DNA of 64,000 nt. Origin: a bacterium. Lineage in GTDB: Bacteria > Desulfobacterota > Binatia > DP-6. The notes under the pieces are model-generated. The model saw nothing but the letters and a program-made list of their open reading frames with translations. It made no database searches and was not told the DNA's origin. Of the stretch, positions 29,132-37,996 are shown in pieces (the stretch's first letter is position 1; each line of letters starts with the position of its first letter). The stretch spans positions 124,001 through 188,000 of the forward strand of contig JAHCID010000006.1 of NCBI GenBank assembly GCA_026129405.1. Reading direction: 5' to 3'. The position numbers were made by a program, and so were the translations under genes.

Positions 29132-31420
29132 CTACCGCACCCCGTAGACGAGCACCTCTGCCAACTGCAGGGGGTCGCTCGACCCCAACAGCTGTATGCG
29201 AATGTATCGCCCGCTACGGTTGATTGGCGAGGCGAACACCCTTCCCGGCGCCGGCCCCTGATGAATCCGCAAGACACCCGGCTGCATGGCGGTCACCGCG
29301 GGATCGGTCGAGACGAATGGATTGTCTGACACGAACACATCAAAGTTCTGCAGGCGAGCTGCGCAGCAATCCGTTCGGTTCCACAGCTCGAGCTCCTCCA
29401 AGGCGAATGAGTTGCCAAGATCCACCTGCCAGTATGGCTTGTTGGTAAAGAACGAATGCGCCACCGACTCATTCGCCCAGTTTCCATCGATATCCCCGTC
29501 GATCGCATTTGATGCAGTCCCGCAAATCCCAAAGAAGCATAATCCAGGGTCCGACATGGATGCGACGACACCAGGCCTGGCGAGGGCAAGATTGGTAACG
29601 ATTGGGGACAGCCGGCCAAGACGCCACCGGCAGTAGTCAGCGAACCACGTGTCGCCCGTGGAATCATCCACGGCAATGCCAGCTAAGAGGGGTGCGACCG
29701 GCTGCGACGGAAAGCAGGGATCAAGGCATGCGTTATTGACGGCCTCACCGGGCGCAAGGGGATACAACGATAGCGGCGGGAAGAGCGACAGAGAGTTCCA
29801 TCGGGGCGATACGAAGCCAACCGTAGCCCGGGACTTTGGATCACGCGGGCTGCCCCAAGTAGTGAACCAGGTGCTTCCGTATGCGTCGAGATTTAGCGAG
29901 TGAAGCACGTAAGGTTCAGGGTTCGTGCATGCCGGGGGGGAGGGGCTCGGAGGAACCGCAGTGAGGGGTCCCGGAATGTCTATCGTGGTGACGCACGGAT
30001 TGGCTCCACCTATCAGGGATTCACATGCCCCAGGTGGGCCTAGCTGGCTTACGTCAAGGCGGCTCGCGGAGAAGTCGAGGAATTCCCCAACAACGACATC
30101 TCCATTTCGCGCGATCGATATCTCCCATGGGGCCGCACCACGGGGCGTTGCCGGCCCTCGTCCTGCGTTGTCGCCAAGCGGATATCGCGTTACGGTGGCG
30201 GAAACTGGATCCAATCGAACTAGCCCACTTTGGCCCCAGTAGTCGGCGGCCCACACGCTCCCGTCGGAACCAATGGCCATGTGGCCGAGAAAGGACGTTA
30301 GAGTACCTCCGAAATGCGGGAAGGAGCCGACGGGCTCAAGGGGATACTCCACGAATCCGCAATTTGCATGCGAGGACGAGCCGACTTCGTTCCACCAGCA
30401 CACTTGGTCCGTGTGTGCGCAGTCAGACGACTGCGCACACGGTCGCGTGGGGTTATCCGAGCAGAATCCCGCAGTACAGCTGGCTGGCGGATCAAATGAG
30501 AGCGACCCGTCGTGCCACAATGTTGCGTCGTCAGTGTCGAACCACCCGATCCTGGCAGGGAGAATCGTACTGACCCCGGTCGTTTGTGACCGAGCGTTGT
30601 ACCACACACGATCTCGTCCCGGCTCGTAGTCCTTCTCGTACGCGAGCCCGAACGTCTCCGTCTGGTTCCCAGGGATATTCCACACGCGTGGGAATGCGAT
30701 GCTCGCCGGATCGTAAAGCACGACGCGACTATGGTTACCCGAGGCCAGAGGAGGCAGGTGATCGCCGCCCTGGTTGAACCACACTCGGCCATAGGGGTCG
30801 ACGAGGGTGTCTTCTCCGTTGCCGCTCACATTCGTCTGAACGCCCCCTCGGTAGAACGGGCCTGGGGTTGGGGCCGAAACGGGGAGAAACGAAATCGGGC
30901 TCCCTGGAGTCAGGACCTTGAAACCCACGTGAACCTCGTCATTCAACCATACCCGGTGGAGTGGGTCGTCATAGGGAGCGGCATTGTTGTTAACTGCAAT
31001 CGCGAGGGGATTGCTGCTGATCGGACCGGCAGGAGTCTTCTGCCATTCGTACTCCCAGTACTGTGCCCGAGACGGCTCGCTGACTAGGGCCCCGCCGCCG
31101 ACGGTGATGTACATTCGTCCGCGCTGTATCGTTGTTGGGAGCTTGACGACGACCACCTCCGGCTCCCACGACACGACGCAAGGCACTGGGTGAGAATCGC
31201 AGTCATCCTGCGAGAACACGACCGATATTCCGGTTGGATCGAGCACCAAGAGCGCCGACCCGGGGTCCGGAGTACCAAAGCCGGCACCGGTCATCGCTAC
31301 TGCAAGAAAGGAGGCTGCAGAGTTCACCAGGGCAATCGCCGGCTGATGAATAAGCGGCTGAGCGTGGCCCGAGGCATTCAGGCCAACCACCATCACTAAC
31401 GCCAATACCCAGCGAAGCAT
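29132..31420 (-). CDS. Secreted beta-propeller (streptogramin-lyase-like) protein with C-terminal discoidin domain
   Basis: A 762-residue exported protein. The signal peptide is MLRWVLALVMVVGLNASGHAQ. Residues of about 20-110 look like an IPT/TIG-type beta domain. A long region of Vgb/NHL-like propeller blades follows (VDPYGRVWFNQGG, IGSDGSVWAADYWGQSG, LDAYGSTWFTTWGS, VDDSTGDTWFADYCRWRLG). It is interrupted by a Cys-rich insert (CTAGFCSDNPTRPCAQSSDC). The last 150 residues form an F5/8-type C (fucolectin/discoidin) carbohydrate-binding domain with ASNAIDGDIDGNWANES, YWQVDLGNSFALEELELWN and GRYIRIQLLG. The start at 31420 is fixed by GAGGAGGGGGG just upstream. Lower GC marks it as part of the island. 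Role inferred: surface glycan binding. Confidence 0.8.
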   Translation of the reverse strand: MLRWVLALVMVVGLNASGHAQPLIHQPAIALVNSAASFLAVAMTGAGFGTPDPGSALLVLDPTGISVVFSQDDCDSHPVPCVVSWEPEVVVVKLPTTIQRGRMYITVGGGALVSEPSRAQYWEYEWQKTPAGPISSNPLAIAVNNNAAPYDDPLHRVWLNDEVHVGFKVLTPGSPISFLPVSAPTPGPFYRGGVQTNVSGNGEDTLVDPYGRVWFNQGGDHLPPLASGNHSRVVLYDPASIAFPRVWNIPGNQTETFGLAYEKDYEPGRDRVWYNARSQTTGVSTILPARIGWFDTDDATLWHDGSLSFDPPASCTAGFCSDNPTRPCAQSSDCAHTDQVCWWNEVGSSSHANCGFVEYPLEPVGSFPHFGGTLTSFLGHMAIGSDGSVWAADYWGQSGLVRLDPVSATVTRYPLGDNAGRGPATPRGAAPWEISIARNGDVVVGEFLDFSASRLDVSQLGPPGACESLIGGANPCVTTIDIPGPLTAVPPSPSPPACTNPEPYVLHSLNLDAYGSTWFTTWGSPRDPKSRATVGFVSPRWNSLSLFPPLSLYPLAPGEAVNNACLDPCFPSQPVAPLLAGIAVDDSTGDTWFADYCRWRLGRLSPIVTNLALARPGVVASMSDPGLCFFGICGTASNAIDGDIDGNWANESVAHSFFTNKPYWQVDLGNSFALEELELWNRTDCCAARLQNFDVFVSDNPFVSTDPAVTAMQPGVLRIHQGPAPGRVFASPINRSGRYIRIQLLGSSDPLQLAEVLVYGVR

Positions 31421-31789
31421 CTCCCCCCCTCCTCGCTGCAAGCCCTGAAGCGTGCACTCATGTCCACGATAGGCTGGCGGCTTGTCAAGGCTGACGTCAC
31501 CGAACGCATAGTCCCCATCGACCGTCCCCAGGCATCCGACGTCGAGGAAGGAGCGCCCCTGCGCCACGCGGCGATGAGGAGCCGGTTGAAGTCCTGAGGC
31601 GGCGGCTAACGTCGCAGGCGACGGACGACAGCTGCTAGCAAGTCTCCCAAGCGCGCGGCGCGAATAGCAGGTATTTACTTGATCCACCTCGCGCCGACGC
31701 GAGACGTTGCTCAAGGACTTCGTGAGTCCCTAGTCTAGAGCCCGCGCCGGCGGCGGCCGTCGCCGCGCGAACGACGAGGAGAACGCGGC
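31421..31789. other. Intergenic region between divergent genes, no gene seen
   Basis: About 370 bases separate the start of the propeller gene from the Dabb gene. Composition returns to high GC toward 31.73 kb. It should hold divergent promoters and the right boundary of the island; no ORF, RNA or repeat is convincing. Confidence 0.5.
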
Positions 31790-32107: not shown

Positions 32108-33391
32108 TCAGTCGACCGTGGGGCAGGCCCGCCCGATCTGACGCAGCACGTCCCACAGGTACCACAGCTCGGGATAGACGAACGGCTTGCCGCTCGTCAG
32201 CAGCGCCACCGCCAGCTCGCGCTCGGGATCGGCCCAGCAGACGACGTTCGTGAAGCCGAGGTGGCCGAAGGCGTGCTGCGTGTCGGGTCCGTAGAGGCTG
32301 AACCACTCGGCGCCGAGCATGAAGCCCATGCCGTAGCGGAACGGCAGGACGAGCGAGAAGTCGAACTCGAGATACGACTGCTCACCGGTCGCGCGCCGGA
32401 TCGTGCGCGGATCGAACACGCGCACGCCGTCGAGCTCGCCGCCGTCGAGGAGCAGCTGGTAGAAGCGGCTCATCTCGTTCGCCGTCGCGACGACGTTCGC
32501 CGAGGGGATCACGCCGCGCAGGAAGCGCGCGTCGTTCGAGAGCGCGATCGCCTCGTGGAAGCCGACGCCGAGCACGCGCGCGAAGAGGAGATTCGCGGGC
32601 GGGATCAACGGCGGCCCGGTGAAGTAGTTGCGGACGACCTGATCGGTCCGCTCCGCCGGCACGCCGTAGGACAGCCAGCGGAACCCGAGCGGCCGCCGCA
32701 GCTCCTCGTCGAGGAACGTGCGCGGGTCGCGCCCGGTGACGCGGCGGATGATCTCGCCGAGCAGGAAGCCGCCGCTCACCGCGTGATAGGCGAGCTCGCG
32801 TCCGGGGCGCCACGTCGGACGGGCGTCGCAGAGGATACGGATCACCGGCGCGGTCTCGTCGAAGTGCTCGAGCGCCATCACCTCCGGCGGCAGGTTCGGG
32901 ATGCCGGCGCGATGGCAGAGGACGTGACGGATCGTGATCCACTGCTTTCCGTACACGCCGAACTCGGGGATGTACTCGCAGACCGGGTCGTCGAGGCGGA
33001 TCAGGTTCCGCTGATCGAGCAGGTGGATCAGCATCGCCGTCACCGCCTTCGACGCCGACAGCGTGAGGAACGGCGTGTCGGGCGTGAGCGGCCGCTTGGG
33101 GGCGTCGGGCAGATCGTCCGGGCCGTTGCCGGCCGCGTGGCCGATCGTACGGTCGAGGAGCACGCGGCCGTGCCGGCGCACGCAGAGGCCGATGGCGGGA
33201 TGGAGGCCGCTGCGGTAGAGGCGCTGGACGGCGCTCCAGATCGCCTCGACGCCGGCCGCCTCGACCCCGAGCGCCCGCGGCGCCGTCTCCGCCTCCCAGC
33301 GCACCACCGTGACACTCTCGAGGTCCCGCGGAACGCGGGCGCGGGCGACACAGCGGACCAACGACACGGCCCCCGGAATGGTACGGCGCAC
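32108..33391 (-). CDS. Serine hydrolase of the beta-lactamase/class C PBP (EstB-like) family
   Basis: A 427-residue protein with no obvious signal peptide. The catalytic SxxK is SASK in LTLSASKAVTAMLIHL, the tyrosine motif is YHAVSGGFLLGEII, and the third motif is HLG in FGHLGFTNVV. These are the three hallmarks of class C beta-lactamase-like esterases. It is probably a cytoplasmic ester hydrolase rather than a true beta-lactamase, given its location and the HxG third motif. Start at 33391, 70 bases below the Spy-like gene on the same strand. Confidence 0.85.
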   Translation of the reverse strand: MRRTIPGAVSLVRCVARARVPRDLESVTVVRWEAETAPRALGVEAAGVEAIWSAVQRLYRSGLHPAIGLCVRRHGRVLLDRTIGHAAGNGPDDLPDAPKRPLTPDTPFLTLSASKAVTAMLIHLLDQRNLIRLDDPVCEYIPEFGVYGKQWITIRHVLCHRAGIPNLPPEVMALEHFDETAPVIRILCDARPTWRPGRELAYHAVSGGFLLGEIIRRVTGRDPRTFLDEELRRPLGFRWLSYGVPAERTDQVVRNYFTGPPLIPPANLLFARVLGVGFHEAIALSNDARFLRGVIPSANVVATANEMSRFYQLLLDGGELDGVRVFDPRTIRRATGEQSYLEFDFSLVLPFRYGMGFMLGAEWFSLYGPDTQHAFGHLGFTNVVCWADPERELAVALLTSGKPFVYPELWYLWDVLRQIGRACPTVD

Positions 33392-33461
33392 CGCCCGCGG
33401 TTGCGAGCAGTGCGCCGTGCGGGCCGGCGGCGGCCCGAGACAGATGGGGGTGCGGCCCGCG

Positions 33462-34079
33462 CTACTGCGGCGGGGGGGGCGGTGGGGGCAGCCCGATCTC
33501 GACCGGGTCGCCGACCAGCTGACGCATCTCCTCGCGCAGCTCGCGCATCCGGGTCTTCACCGCGGCGCCCTTGGCCAGCTGCTCGGGGGTGAGGATGGCC
33601 CGCACCTCGAGCGCGATCGCGAGGCCCTCGCGCATCAGCTGCGCGCGCACCGCGATCGCGTCGTCGAGCTTCTGGGTGGCGGCCTCGGGCGTCGTGTCCG
33701 GAACGATGAGGGTGTCGGCCACGGCCTGGTTCGCCGTCCGCAGCTTGGCGAAGAGCTCGGAGAGCGTCTCGTGATGACGCTGCAGGATCGCCCGCACCTG
33801 CGCCTGCTGCTCGGCGGTGAGCCCGACGCCCTGGAGCATCGCGGGCAGCATCATGCCGGGGTCGCCGTCGAGCAGCATGTGGTCGCCGAACGGGCCGCCG
33901 AAGCCCTTCACACGCATGTGCCTGCCGCCGCCCTGCGGCGGCAGGCACGGGTGCGGCGCCGCCATGGCCGGCGTCGCGGGCGGCGAAGCGTCCGGCTGCG
34001 CCTGGGCCGGCCCGGCGATCGCGAGGAGGCTGCTCAGCGCGACGGCGGTGAGCGTGCACGTGGAACGTACGAGTCGCAT
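33462..34079 (-). CDS. Spy/CpxP/CnrX-like periplasmic stress or metal sensor
   Basis: A 205-residue exported protein (signal peptide SLLAIAGPAQA). It has a His/Met-containing linker (HPCLPP, GGGRHMRVKG, DHMLLDGDPGMMLP) and then the helical LTxxQ architecture. VGLTAEQQAQVRAILQRHH and AILTPEQLAKGAAVKTRMREL mark the two repeats. It ends in a polyproline tail. GGAG precedes the ATG at 34079. Its position directly after a sigma/anti-sigma pair suggests a CnrX-type sensor role, although Spy-like chaperone activity is also possible. Confidence 0.8.
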   Translation of the reverse strand: MRLVRSTCTLTAVALSSLLAIAGPAQAQPDASPPATPAMAAPHPCLPPQGGGRHMRVKGFGGPFGDHMLLDGDPGMMLPAMLQGVGLTAEQQAQVRAILQRHHETLSELFAKLRTANQAVADTLIVPDTTPEAATQKLDDAIAVRAQLMREGLAIALEVRAILTPEQLAKGAAVKTRMRELREEMRQLVGDPVEIGLPPPPPPPQ

Positions 34080-34105
34080 TGCGTGTCTCCTTGGTTGGTT
34101 GACGG

Positions 34106-34564
34106 TCACTCGCATCCCCGGTCCGTCCAGGGATCCGGGCGGGCGCAGGGCCATCCCCCGCGCAAGGCCGCCGCGAGCGGCTGGAGGCTCGAGCGCTGGA
34201 CGGGCCGTGCCAGCCATTCCGTGTCGTCGAGCGCGAAGAGCGCCTGCGAGACGTCGCCGATCGAGACCTCGGCGTACGCCCGGGGCGGCGTCGCATCGGG
34301 TACGAGGAGGACGCCGGCGAGCAACGCCGCCGCGCCGGCGAGGGCGAGGGCGAGGGACAGCCACGCCGCCCCGGGCCGCGCAGGCGGCCGCAGCACGGGG
34401 GCCGGTCCGTCGCGCAGCAACGCCGCCACCAGCGCGGTGTCGGCGACCAGCGCGTCGCGCCGGCGCCGGCAGGGGACGCAGTCCGCGAGGTGCCCGCGCG
34501 CCGACGGATCGGCGACCGTGCCCTCGACGAGATCCTGGAGCACGCGCTCGCTGAGGCAGGTCAT
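34106..34564 (-). CDS. Anti-sigma factor with zinc-binding ZAS motif and one membrane helix
   Basis: A 152-residue protein. The N-terminal cytosolic domain has the zf-HC2 motif GHLADCVPCRRR (H-x3-C-x2-C). One transmembrane helix follows (AAWLSLALALAGAAALLAGVLLV), then a short periplasmic domain. Its ATG at 34564 overlaps the sigma-factor stop (ATGA), the standard arrangement for an anti-sigma factor holding its partner inactive. The Spy/CnrX-like gene follows 26 bases downstream and may supply the periplasmic signal. Confidence 0.88.
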   Translation of the reverse strand: MTCLSERVLQDLVEGTVADPSARGHLADCVPCRRRRDALVADTALVAALLRDGPAPVLRPPARPGAAWLSLALALAGAAALLAGVLLVPDATPPRAYAEVSIGDVSQALFALDDTEWLARPVQRSSLQPLAAALRGGWPCARPDPWTDRGCE

Positions 34565-35085
34565 CGGATCGCTCCTCCGAGCGCGCCGCGCAGCGTGTGC
34601 ACGGCGCGGAAGAGATGTCGCTTCACGCTCCCCGTCCGCAGGCCCAGGGCGTCGGCGACCTCCTGCGTGGTGAAGCCTTCGACGTGCCGCAGGACGAACA
34701 CCTCGCGCTGGCGCGCGGGCAGCCGGCGGAACGCCGTCCACACGGCGCCCCGGAGCTCGGTGCGCAGGGCGGTCAGCTCGGGCGTCCCCCCCGGCGCCGC
34801 CAGGCTCGCGACGTCGATCTCGAGGCCCGCGTCGCGCCACCACCGCCACCAGCGTCCGCGCCGCCGGTCGCGACAGGCGTTCACCGTCACGCGCGAGAGC
34901 CACGCCCCCCATGCGGCGGGCGTCCGCCCGGCCTCGGCCGCACGCAGGAGACGGAGGAAGACCTCCTGCGCGACGTCCTGCGCCTCGGCCGGGTCGCGGA
35001 GCAGCAGCTGGCAGAGGCGCACCACCCGGGGACGGTGACGCCGGTAGAGCGCTTCGGGGTCGTCCGGCGCGGGAATCGTCGCCAT
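34561..35085 (-). CDS. ECF-type RNA polymerase sigma factor
   Basis: A 174-residue sigma-70 family protein with only regions 2 and 4. Region 2 has RLCQLLLRDPAEAQDVAQEVFLRLLR. Region 4 has FRRLPARQREVFVLRHVEGF followed by a helix-turn-helix (TTQEVADALGLRTGSVKRHLFRAV). A Trp/Arg-rich linker (RRRGRWWRWWRDAG) joins them. Start taken at ATG 35085 (MATIPAP). It is followed by an overlapping anti-sigma gene. The PPOX gene lies 44 bases upstream on the same strand, so a longer operon is possible. Confidence 0.93.
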   Translation of the reverse strand: MATIPAPDDPEALYRRHRPRVVRLCQLLLRDPAEAQDVAQEVFLRLLRAAEAGRTPAAWGAWLSRVTVNACRDRRRGRWWRWWRDAGLEIDVASLAAPGGTPELTALRTELRGAVWTAFRRLPARQREVFVLRHVEGFTTQEVADALGLRTGSVKRHLFRAVHTLRGALGGAIR

Positions 35086-35129
35086 GCGCACGCCCCTTCG
35101 ACGTACGCCGGCCGCAAACGGTTGACCGC

Positions 35130-35570
35130 TCAGCCCATCATCTTGCGATAGTCGACGGTGCGCCAGCGCTCCGGCGTCAGCTCGACCAGGACGTTCGGCT
35201 CGGCGGCGCGCTCGGCCTCGGTCATCTGGACGTAGCGGCGTCCCATCTCGGGGCCGAGGTAGCGTAGCGCGACGGCCTCGACGTCGCGCCCGAAGTCCAC
35301 CTCGACGAGGCGCACCGGACCTTCGATGCTGACGTAGCGGTAGGGCGGCGTCTCGTCCTGCACGCACAGCCCCATGCGGCCCGCCGCCCGCAGCAACGCC
35401 GCCTTGCGGGAGCGCGTCCCGGTGACGAGGCGCACGACGCCGCCCGGCTCGTACGCGTACCACACGGGAACCGTCAGCGGCCCGTTGCCGGGATCGACGA
35501 TCGACACCACGGCCACCCGCGTCGCCGCCAGGAAGGCCTCCCGCTCCGCGCGCGTCATCGCAAGGCTCAT
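35130..35570 (-). CDS. PPOX-class flavin/F420-binding split-barrel protein
   Basis: A 146-residue pyridoxamine-phosphate-oxidase-like split barrel. Features are FLAATRVAVVSIVDPGNGPLTVPVWYAYEPGG at the N-terminus, TRSRKAALLRAAGRMGLCVQDE and YVSIEGPVRLVEVDFGRD. Members bind FMN or F420 and often reduce or bind small ligands; the substrate here is unknown. The start is ATG 35570, 31 bases after the stop of the NtrC-type regulator gene. Together with the LLM-family flavoenzyme at 45.1 kb it leaves F420 use as an open possibility. Confidence 0.85.
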   Translation of the reverse strand: MSLAMTRAEREAFLAATRVAVVSIVDPGNGPLTVPVWYAYEPGGVVRLVTGTRSRKAALLRAAGRMGLCVQDETPPYRYVSIEGPVRLVEVDFGRDVEAVALRYLGPEMGRRYVQMTEAERAAEPNVLVELTPERWRTVDYRKMMG

Positions 35571-35601
35571 GAGCCGGACCTGTCCGCCGCGGGCGGACGA
35601 G

Positions 35602-36960
35602 TCAACCGTGCGTCGGGTCGAGACCGAGCCGGCGCATGAGGCGGTAGAGCGTCGTGCGATCGATCCCGAGGACCCGCGCCGCCTCCGCCCGGTTGCCGGC
35701 CGCCGCCTCGAGCGCGCCGCGCACGCGCGCCGCCGTCGCGCGCTCGACCGCCGCCTGGAGCGTCTCCTCGCCGCCCGTCGGCGCCGCCGCGGGCGTCTCG
35801 AGCAGGAGGTCCTCGGGCTCGATGGCGCCGCCGCGCGCGAGGACCACGGCGCGCTCCACGGCGTTCTCGAGCTCACGGACGTTGCCCGGCCACGCGTGGG
35901 ACTCGAGCGCCGCGAGCGCCGCCGGTGCGAACGCGAGCGCGCGCCCCGCCTCCGCCGCATGGCGCGCGAGGACGTGCCGCGCGAGCGGGAGCACGTCCTC
36001 CCGGCGCTCGCGCAGCGGCGCGAGCTGGATCGGGATGACGTGCAGACGGAAGTAGAGATCCTCACGGAAGCGGCCCGCCGCGATCTCCTCGCGCAGGACG
36101 CGATTGGTGGCGGCGACGACGCGCACGTCGATCGGCCGCGGCTCGTTGCCGCCGACGCGCAGCACCTCGCCCTCCTGGAGCACGCGCAGCAGCTTCGCCT
36201 GCAGGTCGGGTGCGATCTCGCCGATCTCGTCGAGGAACAGCGTCCCGCCCGAGGCGCGCTCGAAGCAGCCGGCGCGCGTCGCCTGCGCGCCGGTGAACGC
36301 GCCCTTCTCGTGCCCGAAGAGCTCGCTCTCGACCACCCCCTCGGCGAACGCCTTCAGGTTGACGGCCACGAACGGCCGTCCCACCCGCTCGCTCCAGTAG
36401 TGCAGCAGGCGCGCGACGAGCTCCTTGCCGGTGCCGCTCTCGCCCTGCACCAGGACCGTCGCGCGGCTCGGCGCCACGCGGCGGACGAGGTCGAGCACCG
36501 CCCGGCTCTTCTCGCTCTCCGCGACCACGGCCGCCGGCGCGTAGCGGCTCGCGACCTCCTGCCGCAGCCAGCGGTTCTCGCGCTCGAGCCGGCCCAGCTC
36601 GAGCGCGCGACCGACCACCGCGCGCAGCTCCTCGTTGTCGAAGGGCTTGGTCACGTAGTCGAACGCGCCCGCCCGCATCGCCGCCACCGCGGCGCGCACG
36701 TCGCCGTAGGCGGTGAGCAGGACCACGGGGCGGTTCGGCCGCTGCGCCTTCAGACGCGTCAGCAGCTCGAGGCCGTCCATCTCCGGCATCTTCCAGTCGG
36801 TGACGACGGCGTCCGCGTCGCGTGCCTCGAGCGCCGCCAGCGCGGCGGCGCCGCCGGAAGCGACCTCGCAGATCCACCCGGCGCGCCCGAGCGCACCCGC
36901 GACCACGCTCGCCATGCGCGGCTCGTCGTCGACCACGAGGATGCGGGGCGCGACGCTCAC
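35602..36960 (-). CDS. Sigma-54-dependent response regulator (NtrC family)
   Basis: A 452-residue regulator. The receiver domain (1-120) has ILVVDDEP and the phospho-acceptor Asp55 in VTDWKMPEMDG. The AAA+ domain has GESGTGKE (Walker A), ESELFGHEKGAFTGA with an intact GAFTGA loop for sigma-54 contact, GGTLFLDEIGE (Walker B) and the WPGNVRELEN sensor II region. A Fis-type helix-turn-helix ends the protein (NRAEAARVLGIDRTTLYRL). The GTG start at 36960 overlaps the kinase stop (GTGA). Confidence 0.95.
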   Translation of the reverse strand: MSVAPRILVVDDEPRMASVVAGALGRAGWICEVASGGAAALAALEARDADAVVTDWKMPEMDGLELLTRLKAQRPNRPVVLLTAYGDVRAAVAAMRAGAFDYVTKPFDNEELRAVVGRALELGRLERENRWLRQEVASRYAPAAVVAESEKSRAVLDLVRRVAPSRATVLVQGESGTGKELVARLLHYWSERVGRPFVAVNLKAFAEGVVESELFGHEKGAFTGAQATRAGCFERASGGTLFLDEIGEIAPDLQAKLLRVLQEGEVLRVGGNEPRPIDVRVVAATNRVLREEIAAGRFREDLYFRLHVIPIQLAPLRERREDVLPLARHVLARHAAEAGRALAFAPAALAALESHAWPGNVRELENAVERAVVLARGGAIEPEDLLLETPAAAPTGGEETLQAAVERATAARVRGALEAAAGNRAEAARVLGIDRTTLYRLMRRLGLDPTHG

Positions 36961-37940
36961 GCCGCCACCGCCGCGGCCGTTGCCGGCAGCCGCACGACGA
37001 AGCGGGCGCCGCCGCCGGCGCGCTCGCCGACGTGGATCGCGCCGCCGTGCGCCTCCGCGATCTGCCTTGCGACGGCCAACCCGAGTCCCGTGCCGCGTTG
37101 GCGCGTCGTGAAGAACGGCTCGAAGACCCGCTCGCGCAGCTCCGCGGGCACGCCGGGCCCACTGTCCGCGACCTCGAGCTCGACGGCGTCGCCGGCCGAG
37201 CGTGCGTCGATCGTCACCAGGCCGGCCCGTCCGGCCGCTTCCCCCGCGTTCGACAGGAGGCCGAGCAGCAGCTGGCAGACGAGGTCGGGATCGACGCGCA
37301 GCGCGGGCAGGCCGGGCGCCGCCGCACGCTCGACGCGCACGCCGCGGTCGCGCAGCTCCTCGTCGGCCAGCGCCAGCGCCCGCGCGACGACGTCGCCGAC
37401 GGCCACCGGGCGCAGCGCCGGCTGGAGCGGCCGCGCGAAGGCGAGCAGCGAGGTGACGACGCTCGAGAGCCGATCGATCTCCGTGATGACGAACCCGCAC
37501 GCCCGGCGCGTGTGGCCGTCGTCCGGCGCCGCCTCCTCCTGGAGCCCCTGCGCGGCGGAGCGGATCACGGCGAGCGGGTTGCGCACCTCGTGCGCGATCG
37601 AGCTCGCGAGCTGGCCGAGCGCCGCCAGCTTCTCCTGCTGTGCCAGCCGCCCGCGCGTCGCCGCGAGCACGTCCTGCTGGGCCTGGATCGTGGCGCTCGC
37701 CGCCCGGTCGCGCCGCCGCGCCTCCACCGCGTACCCGACGGCGAAGCCGAGGGCCGCGAACGAGACGCCGAACCACAGCGCGACGAGGGCCGTCGCGTCC
37801 CGCCCGCCGATCTCGAAGCGGAAGCCGAGGGCGCTCGCGAGCAACGTGTCGACGCCCGCCCACACGATGCCGACGACGAGGCCGGTCCAGCGGTCGAGAC
37901 CCGCGGCGAGCGGGGCCAGCGCGGTGAGGGGTCGGGTCAT
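36957..37940 (-). CDS. Membrane sensor histidine kinase, partner of the NtrC-type regulator
   Basis: A 327-residue kinase with two N-terminal membrane helices (TGLVVGIVWAGVDTLLASALGF; ATALVALWFGVSFAALGFAVG) and almost no periplasmic loop. A coiled-coil linker follows, then HisKA with LASSIAHEVRNPLAVIRSA. The HATPase has LLSNAGEAAGRAG, VADSGPGVP and RGTGLGLAVARQIAEAHGG. The missing external domain suggests it senses the membrane or a cytosolic cue. Start ATG 37940. It is divergent from mscL. Confidence 0.92.
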   Translation of the reverse strand: MTRPLTALAPLAAGLDRWTGLVVGIVWAGVDTLLASALGFRFEIGGRDATALVALWFGVSFAALGFAVGYAVEARRRDRAASATIQAQQDVLAATRGRLAQQEKLAALGQLASSIAHEVRNPLAVIRSAAQGLQEEAAPDDGHTRRACGFVITEIDRLSSVVTSLLAFARPLQPALRPVAVGDVVARALALADEELRDRGVRVERAAAPGLPALRVDPDLVCQLLLGLLSNAGEAAGRAGLVTIDARSAGDAVELEVADSGPGVPAELRERVFEPFFTTRQRGTGLGLAVARQIAEAHGGAIHVGERAGGGARFVVRLPATAAAVAA

Positions 37941-37996
37941 GCAAGCGCTCCGCCGGCTCGGATCATCGTCCCCGCGGGCACGCGGGCGCAACCCGG

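Follow-up and report, generated by a model that had tools for sequence, protein, structure and literature searches.

The minus strand of the window (the whole 64-kb stretch of DNA analysed here) carries, in this order, a gene for an ECF sigma factor, a gene for an anti-sigma factor that is likely of the zinc type and a gene for a periplasmic protein of the Spy/CpxP/CnrX fold. This order is not a matter of chance, since it is shown by all 26 testable orthologous loci (of 28) in the class. The trio is probably an autoregulated operon answering envelope (periplasmic protein) stress, as suggested by a promoter motif shared among relatives and by the genes that follow the same motif elsewhere.

Layout and conservation of the three-gene unit

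The three genes are as follows:
34561–35085, minus strand: ECF sigma factor, 174 aa (PF04542 61.5 bits, PF08281 58 bits; ortholog search)
34106–34564, minus strand: likely zinc-type anti-sigma factor, 152 aa, with one predicted membrane helix at residues 67–86 (invariant residues; AlphaFold2 helices)
33462–34079, minus strand: periplasmic protein of the Spy/CpxP/CnrX fold, 205 aa (Pfam, family profile, Foldseek)

Both Pfam scores of the sigma factor lie above their cut-offs, and the protein consists of sigma regions 2 and 4 only, within the range of about 170–200 aa expected of an ECF factor. The ATG of the anti-sigma gene shares four bases (ATGA) with the sigma stop codon, and the overlap of an ECF sigma gene with a zinc-type anti-sigma gene described in an earlier, sequence-only reading of this DNA proved exact in its coordinates. 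A gap of 26 bases separates the anti-sigma gene from the Spy-fold gene.

An ortholog survey of 98 genomes of the class, source genome included, placed the sigma factor at 28 places in 26 genomes (E ≤ 1.8e-33), forming a group separate from the next match at 1.2e-21. Two of these loci (G004 and G078) are cut by a contig end, and each of the 26 testable ones carries, on the same strand, an anti-sigma gene with the zinc motif followed by a Spy-like ORF. The sequence-only reading had proposed that the sigma factor, the ZAS-type anti-sigma factor and the Spy-fold protein form one unit and had called for a gene-order survey in relatives; the survey upheld the unit, the Spy gene being never absent beside an orthologous sigma/anti-sigma pair at the testable loci. 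At one locus (G093), the Spy gene was first recognised by eye and later by a profile that had been built with that same protein included. The ATGA overlap was picked at 20 of 27 anti-sigma starts, where the start codons of relatives were chosen by simple rules and two starts scored −1 have an alternative at −4.

The PPOX-class protein, the NtrC-type regulator and the histidine kinase encoded upstream had no match in the flanks fetched for the other loci with a sigma ortholog, and the downstream serine hydrolase was matched once, weakly and far off. As these neighbours are not kept beside orthologs, the unit comprises three genes. Neither a sigma-70 promoter nor a terminator was found in 33200–35700. 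The 26-base gap, the lack of a terminator-like site in that interval and the shared motif suggest that the three genes are most likely one operon. The distances of sigma, anti-sigma and Spy proteins correlate among relatives (r 0.77–0.80; Spy against anti-sigma, r 0.79), shared trees that may merely mirror the species tree.

The Spy-fold gene of this unit is the single PF13801 gene of the source genome. Among 71 Spy places, drawn from stretches fetched for a Spy or sigma match, 47 had a sigma gene no more than 2.5 kb upstream in the same orientation, and 5 had one elsewhere on that strand; the others had a divergent sigma gene (2), lay near a contig end (3) or were without a sigma gene (14). 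Spy genes also follow more distant sigma factors of the class, sometimes two in tandem. Tandem pairs of Spy-like genes behind a more distant ECF sigma gene were seen in L082, L088, L089, L091, L092 and L093, and a reversed order, with the Spy-like gene before a distant ECF sigma gene on the same strand, in L073, L079 and L084. A scan of named genomes covered 80 loci, mainly of RpoE-type sigma factors, and therefore does not map the spread of the system; a Spy protein of this profile occurred in only two of the 80, both being the G004 and G001 contigs. A search with the Spy protein among plasmids gave no match.

Putative promoter motif and regulon

The motif of the operon lies directly upstream of the sigma gene:
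35100–35126, minus strand: GTCAACC-N16-CGTC, the operon's putative ECF promoter, within the 44 bases that separate the PPOX gene from the sigma gene (exact motif match)

GTCAACC-N16-CGTY is present in 13 of the 28 sigma upstream regions, that of the window included, always with a spacer of 16, compared with a mean of 0.005 upstream regions expected from mononucleotide shuffles. Elsewhere in the same loci, 365,034 bases held nine further matches on the strand of the sigma gene, and three lay on the opposite strand. The strict form is absent from the other 15 upstream regions, several of which show near-matches at the same spacing. In the window, 14 bases separate the end of the motif from the sigma ATG, and the leader would therefore be very short. 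Upstream of 35.09 kb and upstream of 35.57 kb, where a sigma motif had been anticipated, only the former position yielded a site (35100–35126). With one mismatch allowed, the 64-kb window gave five matches against 2.0 expected; these added no convincing site, and the PPOX gene at 35.57 kb was not preceded by any.

In the source genome, the strict motif matched seven times, once in a short gap between genes (the site of the operon) and six times in or over long open frames, while a variant pattern gave three matches, two of them at sites already seen. No target besides the operon was found in these strict and variant searches. Given that only one strict match is intergenic, the regulon of the source genome may be the operon alone.

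In relatives, the sigma factor probably also drives second Spy genes and genes for secreted proteins. The extra Spy genes in G032, G004 and G001 are preceded by GTCAACC-N16-CGTY, and at three loci of one genus the motif is found where the anti-sigma gene ends, directly ahead of Spy. A narrower form of the motif gave 99 sites in 20 genomes versus 36 for the reversed pattern, counts in which related genomes are treated as independent. The 86 distinct sites in loci L229 and up were evaluated, earlier loci being left out and the sigma genes' own promoters being included. An ORF with a signal peptide was detected within 220 bases behind 19 of the 86; the same held for 9.0% of random positions taken from the same loci and, when the sites were read in reverse, for 7 of 86. 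The signal-peptide rule was rough and home-made; it overlooked L264 and L274, two ORFs whose products are likely secreted, and accepted some doubtful ones. ORFs behind motif sites, named by eye, include beta-propeller-like secreted proteins (G010), Cys-rich secreted proteins (G075), a protein resembling polysaccharide deacetylases (G090) and a secreted protein rich in His (G035). Reading by eye behind strict motif sites, with a subset of sites and genes annotated, brought up no recognisable efflux gene.

Several loci carry a second Spy-like gene beside the sigma operon, upstream or divergent, namely L056 (7157–7636), L066 (6720–7097), L060 (10538–10864) and L068 (7599–8072), and GTCAACC-N16-CGTY stands before those of L056, L060 and L068. 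G075 has a trio of related secreted proteins rich in Cys (L248, L272, L273; about 140–180 aa), encoded behind GTCAACC-N16-CGTT sites.

Anti-sigma factor and Spy-fold protein

The following features were distinguished in the two proteins:
34469–34558, minus strand: ZAS-like motif C3-x21-H25-x3-C29-x2-C32 of the anti-sigma factor (sequence; alignment of relatives)
34112–34147, minus strand: C140/C151, a Cys pair in the anti-sigma tail, which is predicted to be periplasmic (tail Cys count in 27 relatives)
33996–34079, minus strand: signal peptide of the Spy-fold protein, residues 1–28, with an AQA cleavage site (sequence; Ala at column 27 in relatives)
33861–33995, minus strand: Gly/Pro/Met/His-rich linker, residues 29–73 (sequence; low confidence in the AlphaFold2 model)
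33513–33860, minus strand: four-helix domain, residues 74–189, with two LTxxQ-like motifs (AlphaFold2; fold search)

The anti-sigma factor of the window had no Pfam match of its own. Its N-terminal domain contains H-x3-C-x2-C together with an upstream Cys, as in ZAS proteins, and C3, H25, C29 and C32 do not vary among 27 relatives, nor do M1 and L9. On these four residues, the protein is likely zinc-type (ZAS-like), with zinc binding and sigma inhibition predicted. The zf-HC2 family was reached by one of the 27 family members (E 0.0025), and Foldseek returned weak matches to ChrR and RslA only (E 2.8–7.2).

The tail of the anti-sigma factor is short and poorly conserved. Two tail Cys were counted in 21 of the 27 proteins, one in two and none in four, with a spacing of 4–11 residues; extra Cys in or near the membrane helix (L080, L094, L141) were excluded. 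Proteins of the family tend to have either both Cys or neither (Fisher p 0.0009, without correction for kinship), a value that is only a guide because the relatives are kin. The AlphaFold2 model has a block pLDDT of 51–68 from residue 91 onward, and the geometry of the Cys is therefore not readable from it. A narrow literature search on this point found no report of a periplasmic Cys pair in anti-sigma factors, and the pair in 21 of 27 members is possibly new. Throughout the class, a tail disulfide made or lost in the periplasm, with Spy possibly bound to that tail as well, might report the oxidative folding of secreted proteins to the sigma factor in such sigma/anti-sigma/Spy switches, which is considered unlikely.

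For the third protein, a Spy/CpxP-like fold had been claimed, and Pfam agreed, with PF13801 (Metal_resist) scoring 50.1 bits (cut-off 29.2) and LTXXQ 27.6 bits (cut-off 24.3). At E ≤ 0.001, PF13801 was matched by 24 of 26 Spy-fold relatives and PF07813 by 16 of 26. The helical hairpin, the LTxxQ-like motifs and the periplasmic location are those of the Spy/CpxP/ZraP/CnrX fold, and the four-helix domain was modelled with a block pLDDT of 93–97 over most of its length, lower at the ends. When the family profile was compared with PDB sequences, E. coli Spy came first (E 3e-8), followed by CpxP (0.021), ZraP (0.024) and CnrX (0.3). Foldseek ranked CnrX first (E 0.0078, probability 1.00), then NccX, CpxP, Spy and ZraP, in agreement with the earlier assignment to the CnrX fold. 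As the profile ranks Spy first and the fold search CnrX, the fold does not decide between sensor and chaperone.

Ala at column 27 is conserved in 21 of 26 Spy relatives and belongs to an AxA-type site, so that the signal peptide, judged by reading the sequence, looks cleavable. The linker, which the sequence-only reading had called His/Met-rich, is moderately so, with 15% H+M in the protein of the window and 4–42% in 26 relatives, and is equally Gly/Pro-rich; its Met and His residues could bind metal. The C-terminus of the protein is a proline run, PPPPPPPQ (33462–33490, minus strand), and Pro-rich ends also occur in several relatives.

Proposed role and comparison with known systems

In the proposed autoregulated operon, the cytoplasmic zinc-type domain of the anti-sigma factor would, as family knowledge suggests, hold the sigma factor at the inner membrane at rest, and a periplasmic signal acting on the tail with the Cys pair would set it free. 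The freed sigma factor would read GTCAACC-N16-CGTY, the observed motif being its presumed recognition site, and would transcribe its own operon, raising the sigma factor, the anti-sigma factor and the putative Spy-like chaperone together. In relatives, it would probably also raise further Spy copies and secreted proteins. Spy, being raised with its own operon and having second copies in relatives, would thus be above all an output, possibly with an added feedback effect on the anti-sigma factor like that of CpxP on CpxA. Of the metal or envelope-stress system suggested earlier, the promoter and putative regulon data favour the envelope half, whereas a CnrX-type metal sensor is not supported by the aligned residues, the signal peptide or the efflux gene search. 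For the envelope-stress reading, only 19 of the 86 evaluated sites fit the picture of secreted genes, and the Foldseek ranking of CnrX above Spy stands against it.

A three-part switch resembling CpxP or RseB, in which Spy shields the periplasmic tail of the anti-sigma factor until misfolded proteins titrate it away and the tail is cut or rearranged to free the sigma factor, would make Spy both input and output. It is possible but rather doubtful. The strict linkage of Spy to the sigma/anti-sigma pair and the correlated divergence of Spy and anti-sigma proteins (r 0.79) are consistent with it, as are the precedents of CpxP, a feedback inhibitor of this kind in Cpx signalling (PMC2912261), and of RseB, which binds RseA (PMC8103513). 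However, co-regulation also accounts for the linkage, the interface with Spy is hypothetical, the tail is short and poorly conserved, and extra Spy genes without an anti-sigma partner have the same motif, as plain outputs would.

A metal switch like that of CnrYXH, with the Spy-fold protein binding metal and signalling via the anti-sigma factor to a sigma factor that controls metal resistance, appears quite unlikely. The name of PF13801 (Heavy-metal resistance), the best Foldseek matches (CnrX and NccX) and the His/Met-rich linker, with its 4–42% H+M in the 26 relatives, point towards it. However, His119 of CnrX, a metal ligand, and Met123 align to I155 and V159, and none of the 26 relatives has His at the first or Met at the second of these positions, a comparison limited by the weak pairwise alignment with CnrX (E 0.41). 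The helices also lack Cys, no His column exceeds 11 of 26, and the ORFs read behind motif sites included no recognisable efflux gene. CnrX is a transmembrane protein (PMC7689651), whereas the Spy-fold protein has a signal peptide that looks cleavable. On the aligned positions I155/V159, a CnrX-type metal site in the Spy-fold protein was rejected, subject to the weakness of that alignment (E 0.41). It is highly improbable that, as in ZraPSR, the histidine kinase and NtrC-type regulator encoded nearby (35602–37991), and not the sigma factor, have the Spy gene as their target or partner. ZraP shares the fold, and ZraS and ZraR are among the many families against which the kinase and the sigma-54-type regulator score. 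Those scores are far below the ZraS/ZraR cut-offs, the kinase, the regulator and the PPOX gene were unmatched in the fetched flanks of other ortholog loci, and Spy always accompanies the sigma factor. The ZraPSR arrangement was rejected on the neighbourhood, as the kinase and regulator are not conserved beside orthologs.

In Cupriavidus, the Cnr genes are ordered Y-X-H, and CnrY is not known to be a ZAS protein. CnrYXH and NccYXH resemble the unit of the window in having an ECF sigma factor, a membrane anti-sigma factor and a periplasmic helical-hairpin protein, CnrX being the top fold match. The Y-X-H order, the transmembrane CnrX sensor, Met123 and, behind the motif sites read, the RND target were not found in the system of the window. 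According to the cited part of its literature, CnrYXH is a metal switch in which CnrX is a transmembrane metal sensor that requires Met123 and the target is an RND efflux pump (PMC7689651). CpxP-CpxAR and Spy of enterobacteria share the fold, with E. coli Spy as the closest PDB sequence to the profile, and the chaperone role in envelope stress that is proposed for the Spy-fold protein, and differ in being under two-component systems, not an ECF sigma factor. RseB is not known to have the Spy/CpxP/CnrX fold. In E. coli, RpoE-RseA-RseB likewise combines a sigma factor, a membrane anti-sigma factor and a periplasmic partner in one envelope-stress operon, as described in the cited part of the source (PMC8103513).

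The closest described system is CirY/CirZ-Spy of Phocaeicola vulgatus, which has the same order of ECF sigma factor, anti-sigma factor and spy on one strand. In the parts of the report cited here (PMC13114119, 2026), spy is co-transcribed with cirYZ, deletion of the anti-sigma gene cirZ increases cirY and spy as well as two genes downstream that encode putative hydrolase/peptidoglycan-binding proteins, and a second spy stands behind another sigma/anti-sigma pair. By analogy, the unit of the window would work most like cirYZ-spy. The likeness noted is one of gene order, the system belongs to another phylum, and those parts of the report mention neither a Cys pair nor a GTCAACC promoter. The same architecture, with rpoE8, is also reported as an operon in Azospirillum brasilense (PMC12826043, 2025); in the cited part of that study, the protein encoded between the other two is not called an anti-sigma factor, and the sole observation given is a rise in levels when RpoE6 is over-expressed.

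The architecture is therefore already known from cirYZ-spy and ordinary in principle, while the class-wide promoter and the tail Cys pair deserve attention. Together with cirYZ-spy, the unit suggests that control of Spy by a sigma/anti-sigma pair of its own has recurred as a solution beyond the Cpx/Bae wiring of enterobacteria. The unit indicates that proteins annotated by family name as 'periplasmic heavy metal sensor' can instead be Spy-like outputs of ECF sigma factors. For this class, known here mainly through metagenome assemblies, it also offers GTCAACC-N16-CGTY as a promoter open to testing, as well as a putative regulon of secreted proteins.

Other genes near the unit, all on the minus strand, were annotated as well. 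Just upstream of the sigma promoter, 35130–35570 encodes a PPOX-class, F420-type oxidoreductase-like protein (TIGR03618 75.2 bits, slightly under the cut-off of 79.05), preceded at 35602–37991 by the histidine kinase and a response regulator of the NtrC/AtoC type, which are not conserved beside orthologs. Downstream of the Spy gene, 32108–33391 encodes a serine hydrolase of the beta-lactamase/LipE family (PF00144, 207 bits), and 29132–31714, in a stretch of lower GC content (61–63%), encodes a large protein that is likely secreted and carries an F5/8-type C domain at its C-terminus.
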